Shown here in pieces: positions 10,075 to 12,310 of a stretch of DNA of 37,145 bases. How positions within the stretch are numbered: the first letter of the stretch is position 1; the number at the start of each line of letters is the position of its first letter. Origin of the DNA: Spirochaetota bacterium. Lineage in GTDB: Bacteria > Spirochaetota > UBA4802 > JAGODF01. The DNA lies in the NCBI GenBank assembly GCA_017998375.1, contig JAGODF010000003.1:1-37145 (forward strand). The letters are read 5' to 3'. Position numbers and translations under genes: made by a program. A model generated the notes under the pieces. It was given only the letters and a program-made list of their open reading frames with translations, did not search any database and was not told the origin of the DNA.

Positions 10075-10103
10075 TTGACTTTCCATGAAAAGTTTGCTAC
10101 ATT
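10075..10103 (+). promoter_or_regulatory. Sigma70-like promoter for the lipoprotein/caspase-like pair
   Basis: TTGACT (10075-10080) and TACATT (10098-10103) are 17 bases apart, just after the M48 gene. Transcription would start near 10110, about 40 bases before the lipoprotein ATG. Confidence 0.6.
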
Positions 10104-10149: not shown

Positions 10150-10665
10150 ATGGACATGAGAAAAATATGCGCGCTGGCGGTCCTGTGCGCGGCGGTTGCC
10201 CTGGCGGGGTCCTGCCGGCAGGAGACCGCGCCCGGCGGAGGGGACACAATGGAATCGAAAATCACACAGAAAGTCAGGGATTTTTTGGGGAGCGATATCA
10301 TCGACATCATCAAGAGCCCGGATAAAGTTGAAAGCTACAGGGTGGATTTCCACAAGACGGGGAAGGGCGAGAACCTCGGCGGGTATCCGGTCAAGGGCAA
10401 GGGGCCGGACCTGGCGCCCAAGCAGATCGAGCGCCTACAGCTGATGCTCCTCGACGAGAACACGTACCTGTTCGACGTGGTGAAAAAATGCCTCTTCCTC
10501 CCGGAATACGCCTTCCGGTTCGTCAGGGGGGACCGGTCCGTGATCGTCCTGGTGTGCTACAGCTGCGAGGAACTGACCTTCGTGTACGGGGGGAGGGAAC
10601 TCCTGGAAGACTTCAACAACGCGACGCGGCGCATGAAGGCGCTGACGGGCGAACTATTCAAATGA
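10150..10665 (+). CDS. Small predicted lipoprotein
   Basis: 171 residues from the ATG at 10150, which follows a strong GGGAGGAG Shine-Dalgarno. The frame opens further upstream at 10075, but that codon overlaps the -35 box and lacks a ribosome site. The N-terminus is a lipoprotein signal (CALAVLCAAVALAGSC) with lipidated Cys23 expected. The mature part has no family I recognise; it contains the cysteine pair CYSCEE and a stretch about a two-sided strand fold (VEYR/ESYRVDFHKTGKG region). It is followed after 13 bases by the caspase-like gene and shares its promoter, so the two products may act together in the periplasm. Confidence 0.75.
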   Translation: MDMRKICALAVLCAAVALAGSCRQETAPGGGDTMESKITQKVRDFLGSDIIDIIKSPDKVESYRVDFHKTGKGENLGGYPVKGKGPDLAPKQIERLQLMLLDENTYLFDVVKKCLFLPEYAFRFVRGDRSVIVLVCYSCEELTFVYGGRELLEDFNNATRRMKALTGELFK

Positions 10666-10678
10666 ACGGAGAAAGGCC

Positions 10679-12310
10679 ATGAGGAGGATGATACGATGTG
10701 CCGGAGCAGTTATGCTTCTTGCCGCAGCGGTGTGCTTCCTTCCCTCGGCGGCGCGGTCCGCGACTATCCACGCGATACTCGTGGGCGACACGGTTGACCC
10801 GAACATCGGCCGGGGCGACAAGCTCGACCTGGACCTGATGACCGGCCTATTGCGGGACGCGTCGAAGCAGACGGGCATGCGGCTCAACATGCGGGTGTTC
10901 GATGACAAGATTATCAGGTCGCAGATCATGAGCGCGGTCCAGGCACTGCGCCCGGAGAGCAACGATACCGTGGTCTTTTTCTACACGGGGCACGGCTACA
11001 GGACGAGCTCCTTCAGGGACAAGTGGCCCGCCTTCGCGCTGAAAAACGAGAGCGGCGGATCGGCGGGGCTCGACCAGAAGTGGGTCTACAACGAGCTGAA
11101 GGACAAGGGAGCGCGGCTCCTCATAGTGATGGCGGACGCCTGCAACAGCGTCGTTCCCGACGGCGCCATCGACACGCGCATGGCGCTTCGCAGCGGGAAG
11201 GAGCTGCCGGAGAGCTATAAAAAGCTCTTTCTCGAGGCCAGGGGCACCATCCTGGCGTCGAGCAGCATTCCCGGGCAGTATTCCTACAGCGGAAGCAACG
11301 GCAGCCAGTTCACCGTCGCGTTCATAGAGTCGGTCAGGAAGGCCCTCGCAGGAACGAATCCTTCCTGGGAGCCGATCATGCGGGAAGCGACGCGCCCGCT
11401 CTACGGCGGGCAGCAGCAGCCGCAGTTCGCGATGAACGACGCGGCAGGCACTCCCGGCGAGGGGGAGCGCGATACGAGCGCCGACGACCGCGGCTCATCT
11501 GAGCCTTCCGGGGGAGGGGAGGATGCGACGCTGGGGCTGGGCAACCTGCTGGTCGAGATGGAGAGCCAGGTGCAGTACAGCGCGCAGTCGTCCCAGTGGC
11601 CGGGAATGCGCGAGCGCTGGATGCAGGGCGCCTACGGAGCCGGAACCAGTGCCGCGAAAATGCGCGACGTGCTCATAGCCTTCGAACAGCACATGAAGCC
11701 GCAGTCGATGAAGGAAGGCTGGAGCGCGAGGAAGGCGTCATGGACCGGTTCCGTGAGGACGGCGTCGAATATCGCCCAGCTGGCGCGGCCCCTCCTCGAC
11801 GTTGAGGCGGCGATATCGGAATCGGCGTTCGGTCCCGCCTGGAGCGGCCAGCGGTCGGGGTGGCAGGCGAGGGTCCGCGGCTTCGGAGGCTCCTCCGGCG
11901 GAGGCGCCGACGAAAGGGAGGATTCCGGCGGCGGTGAATCGCCAGCGGGCGGGGGTGTCTTCGGCGGGCTCCTCATCCGGGTCGAAGAAAGTATGATATC
12001 GTCCGCCATGGAGCAGGCCTGGAGCGGCCGGAAAAGCCAGTGGCAGAACGACGTGAGGAGCGCGGGCGACAGCGTGAACCGCCTGCGGGAACTCATGGTG
12101 ACCTTCGAGACCAACGTGAAGTACGACGCCCAGGAAAGCTACTGGCGGAACAGGAGGGCCGACTGGGTGAGAAGGTCGAATTCGGCGCGGGACATTGACG
12201 AGCTTAAGCGGCTCCTGGTGGAAGTCGAGAGCTCCATCAAGTACTCGGCGCAGGTCGAGTCATGGAGGGAGGAAAGGGCCAACTGGCTGCGGCAGGTCCA
12301 GGGGCAGTAG
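10679..12310 (+). CDS. Secreted caspase-like (C14) protein with six E/W/W repeats
   Basis: 543 residues. A signal peptide (hydrophobic core about 9-22, cleavage near SAARSA) exports it. Residues about 30-230 form a caspase/metacaspase-type domain: the strand VVFFYTGHGY gives His105 and the strand LLIVMADACNS gives Cys155, with the usual spacing for the C14 catalytic dyad. Residues 290-543 hold six copies of a 40-41 residue unit, split after the third by a Gly/Ser/Glu-rich linker (about 403-430). Each unit has invariant Glu6, Trp18 and Trp25. The Shine-Dalgarno GGAGAAAGG precedes the start. Caspase-like domains are Arg/Lys- or Asp-specific proteases or inactive scaffolds; specificity and substrates here are unknown. 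Confidence 0.85.
   Translation: MRRMIRCAGAVMLLAAAVCFLPSAARSATIHAILVGDTVDPNIGRGDKLDLDLMTGLLRDASKQTGMRLNMRVFDDKIIRSQIMSAVQALRPESNDTVVFFYTGHGYRTSSFRDKWPAFALKNESGGSAGLDQKWVYNELKDKGARLLIVMADACNSVVPDGAIDTRMALRSGKELPESYKKLFLEARGTILASSSIPGQYSYSGSNGSQFTVAFIESVRKALAGTNPSWEPIMREATRPLYGGQQQPQFAMNDAAGTPGEGERDTSADDRGSSEPSGGGEDATLGLGNLLVEMESQVQYSAQSSQWPGMRERWMQGAYGAGTSAAKMRDVLIAFEQHMKPQSMKEGWSARKASWTGSVRTASNIAQLARPLLDVEAAISESAFGPAWSGQRSGWQARVRGFGGSSGGGADEREDSGGGESPAGGGVFGGLLIRVEESMISSAMEQAWSGRKSQWQNDVRSAGDSVNRLRELMVTFETNVKYDAQESYWRNRRADWVRRSNSARDIDELKRLLVEVESSIKYSAQVESWREERANWLRQVQGQ
11546..12310 (+). repeat. Six-fold protein repeat encoded in the caspase-like gene
   Basis: Units begin at residues 290, 331, 371, 431, 472 and 512 of the product. 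Typical starts are LLVEMESQ, VLIAFEQH, PLLDVEAA, LLIRVEES, LMVTFETN and LLVEVESS. Every unit carries Glu at position 6 and Trp at positions 18 and 25; units 1, 5 and 6 also share a Y-S/D-A-Q element at 11-14. Units 3 and 6 are shorter (32 residues). The DNA copies are diverged, so this is a protein-level repeat and not a recent tandem duplication. A helical hairpin per unit is my inference. Confidence 0.9.

Follow-up and report, generated by a model that had tools for sequence, protein, structure and literature searches.

To our knowledge, the exported caspase-like proteases of bacteria have been assigned little function. The closest described relatives of the protein considered here are the bacterial caspase homologues of peptidase family C14 and the metacaspases, with which it has a profile match and a His-Cys dyad in common. 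In some bacterial caspase homologues the N-terminus forms a helix, possibly a signal peptide; among homologues from Spirochaetes the His and Cys are kept in 89% (PMC3501461). An N-terminal export signal, found in a minority of the bacterial C14 members in that survey, is probably also present in our protein, which differs from the C14 bacterial caspases by an apparently new C-terminal repeat module and by a conserved lipoprotein partner gene. The open literature on caspases in spirochaetes, in Leptospira and in bacteria generally yielded no paper naming the repeat pattern.

The window, by which we mean the whole 37,145-nucleotide stretch that was analysed, comes from contig JAGODF010000003.1 of a Spirochaetota genome (GCA_017998375.1) that is 77% complete and divided into 438 contigs. 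The protein has a likely signal peptide, a caspase-like domain and six units of about 40 residues, encoded directly downstream of the lipoprotein gene (Table 1).

Table 1. Features of the lipoprotein-caspase locus, numbered from the first letter of the window.
Feature	Position	Strand	Basis and remarks
Lipoprotein gene, lipobox ...LAGSC	10150..10665	+	Directly upstream of the caspase gene
Open reading frame of the caspase-like protein	10679..12310	+	543 aa
Signal peptide of the caspase-like protein	10679..10762	+	Residues 1-28; cleavage site placed by eye after ARSA
Caspase-like (Peptidase_C14) domain	10763..11453	+	Pfam PF00656 match, His105, Cys155
Dyad residue H105	10991-10993	+
Dyad residue C155	11141-11143	+
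Linker from caspase domain to first module	11454..11533	+	Low confidence, AF2 pLDDT 22-45
First three-repeat module	11534..11887	+	Profile matches; pLDDT about 75-93 in the full-length AF2 model
Repeats of the first module	11534-11650, 11651-11770, 11771-11887	+	Profile matches
Gly/Ser-rich linker (23 residues) between modules	11888..11956	+	Sequence; AF2 pLDDT 25-53
Second three-repeat module	11957..12307	+	Profile matches; AF2 of the module alone
Repeats of the second module	11957-12073, 12074-12193, 12194-12307	+	Profile matches

The preliminary description of this DNA, made from its letters, had placed a caspase-like dyad in front of the repeats and a signal peptide at the N-terminus, and both agree with what we find. 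The Peptidase_C14 model matches the protein at 49.2 bits against a curated cut-off of 21.4, both dyad residues are present, and their HG[YF] and D-x-C-N contexts are kept in 14 of 14 aligned homologues; the NCBIfam model NF047832 (caspase, EACC1-associated) gives 37.2 bits, under its cut-off of 140. Signal peptides were called by eye in all proteins; the one of about 28 residues seen here is plausible, and the N-termini of the homologues are likewise hydrophobic. In a full-length AlphaFold2 (AF2) model (pLDDT 65.5, pTM 0.37) both modules are confident and the caspase part is poorly predicted; the best PDB matches returned by Foldseek for that low-confidence part are metacaspase 4 and MALT1 (probability 0.97-1.00, E no lower than 0.013).

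We propose, as a reading to which we would give about an even chance, that the repeats constitute a tethered binding or recruitment module for an exported caspase-like peptidase that is paired with a lipoprotein. On this proposal the gene product would be an exported, proteolytically active cysteine peptidase of caspase fold, carrying two compact helical modules on flexible C-terminal linkers. Each module would consist of three helical-hairpin repeats whose Glu, Trp, Arg and Trp residues probably form a shared core, and the modules would most likely keep the peptidase at a periplasmic or outer-envelope target. The lipoprotein encoded immediately upstream would anchor or control the peptidase, presumably through physical contact.

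The repeat itself is well founded. Six units with Glu6, Trp18 and Trp25 in every unit had been reported, and these residues are indeed present in 6 of 6; pairwise identity between the window units is only about 13-39%. A profile built from other loci, leaving out the window repeats and those of the nearest homologue, recovers exactly the same six units with a whole-sequence E of 2.4e-74. When the same residues were shuffled 2000 times, no shuffled sequence reached the listing threshold of that profile. Over 79 repeats, in a profile numbering that adds 7 to the original one, Trp25 and Trp32 are conserved in 100% and Glu13 in 97%. The earlier statement that conservation is confined to these three positions was too narrow, however: position 29, three residues before the second Trp, is basic in 98% (Arg 92%, Lys 6%) and also in 6 of 6 window units, and Gln21 and Val36 are kept in 87% and 86%, respectively. 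The motif should read E...W...[RK]..W.

Nor are the six units consecutive, since a 23-residue Gly/Ser-rich linker splits them into two three-repeat modules, and they are better read as two modules than as a row of six. Complete modules elsewhere always contain exactly three repeats, or two such blocks with a linker between them. The best match of a repeat in another protein lies at the same repeat position for 95% of the 79 repeats, against 34% when positions are permuted; thus the triplication is old, and the module, rather than the single repeat, is the evolving unit. This result, together with the confident helical model described below, supports the original suggestion that selection for a fold, and not recent duplication, accounts for the pattern.

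The impression that no named repeat has this pattern was borne out by profile comparison: against Pfam, NCBIfam and PHROGs the module gave no family above cut-off or otherwise convincing. A weak resemblance to DUF7401 (PF24134) recurs, in that, with E values allowed up to 0.1, 8 of the 18 module sequences match; each match covers a single repeat unit and the same stretch of the model (positions about 57-94), and the module could in principle be a remote member of this known though uncharacterised family. We consider such membership quite improbable, as the best match (E 3e-5) reaches 24.6 bits against a gathering cut-off of 27, every module member tried falls under that cut-off, no single stretch passes alone, and none of 39 genomes of the order held a DUF7401 match above it. 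AlphaFold2, given the second module and nine other module sequences, returned a confident all-helical model (mean pLDDT 95.4, pTM 0.87) in which the helices and the short bridges between them recur at equivalent points of every repeat; a structure prediction had been among the checks proposed at the outset. The three repeats might conceivably form a closed ring. Searches with this fold gave no significant match in the PDB (best E 5.3) or among viral models in BFVD (best E 1.2). Two PDB entries matched by sequence, an engineered protein (E 0.002) and a paxillin fusion (E 0.0019), were set aside as due to chance or composition because their scores are low and the fold search did not return them. 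The repeat module is an unnamed, apparently new domain family that has a confident predicted fold and no structural counterpart in the PDB or among the viral models.

The conserved residues may be structural only, in which case they would say nothing about binding. On this basis one might regard the modules as mainly spacers or stabilisers that have no specific ligand, with Glu, Trp, Arg and Trp serving in core packing alone: the invariant positions look like the core of a repeat fold, and the other positions and the net charge vary freely. Small secreted proteins that consist of one module only, two of which are encoded side by side in one genome (L033/L075), are hard to explain in these terms, and we think this alternative rather unlikely. 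Binding of nucleic acid or LPS through conserved positive charge is not supported either, as the net charge of the modules ranges from -4 to +9, which implies no common charged ligand.

The distribution of the module also bears on the binding or recruitment role. Among 59 relatives searched, it was found in each of the four genomes sampled from the window's family and in one further genome (G043), and scanning 393 Spirochaetota genomes with a profile yielded another (G201), so that it extends to two further Spirochaetota lineages outside the window's family. The same search detected a distant form in a fourth lineage, in the five sampled genomes of one genus (g8) of family f6; it matches the module in profile-profile comparison (probability 96%, E 3.9e-9) and can be read as two blocks in which the third repeat is shortened. 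In three loci (L052, L053, L054) the gene for this distant repeat protein directly follows a pair of genes (clusters 1 and 4) that are CYTH-like and GerMN-like by eye, and in G003 this gene pair recurs at a distance of about 4 kb from the gene of a module lipoprotein (L041:12885-14194). The sensitive profile search covered Spirochaetota, and other phyla were scanned with exact short peptide patterns; that scan returned Spirochaetota records alone, which is weak evidence for absence elsewhere because it depends on two such patterns. No relatives of the module were found in plasmids, phages or viral contigs.

The proteins that carry the module are varied. They include stand-alone secreted proteins of about 145 residues, lipoproteins, and two-module proteins of about 300 residues, and the module also occurs C-terminal to a CsgG-like/PPC lipoprotein; in one example (L027) CsgG and PPC are both above the Pfam cut-off, and in another (L036) CsgG is above it and PPC below (24 versus 25.9). 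PPC (PF04151) resembles the module in being an accessory domain that recurs at the C-terminus of exported proteins, and in these CsgG-type lipoproteins it adjoins the module on its upstream side. It is a different family; the module is predicted all-helical. Behind a caspase, the module occurs twice in the window protein and in those of G002 and G043 and once in that of G201, so that three caspase-like domains besides that of the window are accompanied by the pattern, a recurrence that the preliminary description had thought worth checking. Its treatment as a feature of the caspase does not survive: the majority of copies form secreted proteins on their own, belong to lipoproteins or lie behind a CsgG/PPC-type lipoprotein, and two genomes of the window's family (G001, G003) have 4-7 modules and no such caspase, which argues that the main job of the module is not specific to caspases. 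Domains used for binding or targeting usually occur, as this one does, on varied exported proteins, and we infer that the module probably has a binding or recruiting function within the envelope. That it forms a substrate- or wall-binding arm, as first proposed, is a conjecture.

The partner in such binding could be another module, so that caspases would be drawn to lipoproteins or small secreted proteins that bear modules, much as death domains recruit animal caspases, but in the periplasm. The window's own genome has seven further module places, on other contigs and on other exported proteins, and caspases with two modules are present in three genomes, as such homotypic recruitment might lead one to expect. 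The G201 caspase has one module, however, and no other was found in that genome (78% complete), and module proteins persist where the caspase is lacking; we hold both the homotypic scheme and the death-domain analogy to be very doubtful. The neighbourhoods of the stand-alone copies do not single out a ligand. These neighbours include Hsp33, ComEC, CoA-ligase-like and cytochrome genes, and no operon common to all stand-alone modules was found. In three genomes of the family stand-alone module genes adjoin, by eye, an Hsp33-like gene (L026, L033, L040), and in two genomes of the genus multihaem-cytochrome-like genes lie a few kb from two-module lipoproteins (L030:220-1632, L035:3447-4802; Pfam was run on the L035 copy only).

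A link to the lipoprotein encoded just upstream had also been suggested, and comparison among genomes strengthens it. The ORF list starts this gene at a TTG at 10075; the ATG at 10150 fits the signal peptide and the homologues. The lipoprotein has no Pfam or NCBIfam match, and its lipobox Cys is aligned in four sequences. Elsewhere in the lipoprotein and its homologues (L107-L120) a Cys in a KKC segment and a later Cys are kept, and the first Cys of a C..C pair is replaced in G043. A clear homologue (E below 1e-20) was detected in 14 of 393 Spirochaetota genomes, and in 14 of 14 it lies directly upstream of a caspase on the same strand (coordinates by eye), a co-occurrence that is not independent for each genome because relatives share ancestry. 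In the window the two genes are separated by a 13-bp gap with no promoter-like site inside, and one such site lies upstream of the lipoprotein gene. Four genomes of family f36 (G104, G123, G127, G151) each have several divergent caspase-like genes and no match to the lipoprotein profile.

All 14 paired caspases carry some C-terminal domain behind the caspase domain. The four with modules group together (support 100/99 in a midpoint-rooted tree), and the other ten have a different domain of about 95 residues with two conserved Cys. This two-Cys domain is seen in caspases L091-L100 from other Spirochaetota; in the two examples compared with Pfam (L092, L093) it has no match above cut-off, and its homology to the module is not supported (hhalign probability 1.7%). 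Since ten related caspases beside the same lipoprotein family carry this unrelated domain, the module is not needed by the caspase and is an exchangeable accessory.

The constant presence of a C-terminal domain may also be taken to mean that the modules regulate the caspase, masking its active site or being cut off by autoprocessing in the linker, with release switching activity on. Linker processing is common in caspase-fold peptidases, and long low-confidence linkers separate the parts in the AF2 model. We nevertheless judge a regulatory function unlikely, as most module copies are found without any caspase, including those of the two family genomes that lack this one, and the full-length model gave no confident docking. 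The low-confidence linkers that flank the first module also count in favour of tethered binding modules. Several observations speak against binding or recruitment: the stand-alone copies share no neighbourhood that points to a ligand, net charge differs widely between modules, two genomes of the family have modules and no such caspase, and the caspase region is modelled with low confidence.

It is conceivable, if improbable, that this new, compact and pseudo-threefold helical domain, so far seen only in Spirochaetota, is a shared recruitment module of an envelope network, to which it would bring the protease and its lipoprotein. A module of about 115 residues is small enough for expression, crystallisation and ligand tests, and the conserved lipoprotein-caspase pair with its exchangeable C-terminal domains offers a concrete handle on the exported caspases of bacteria.
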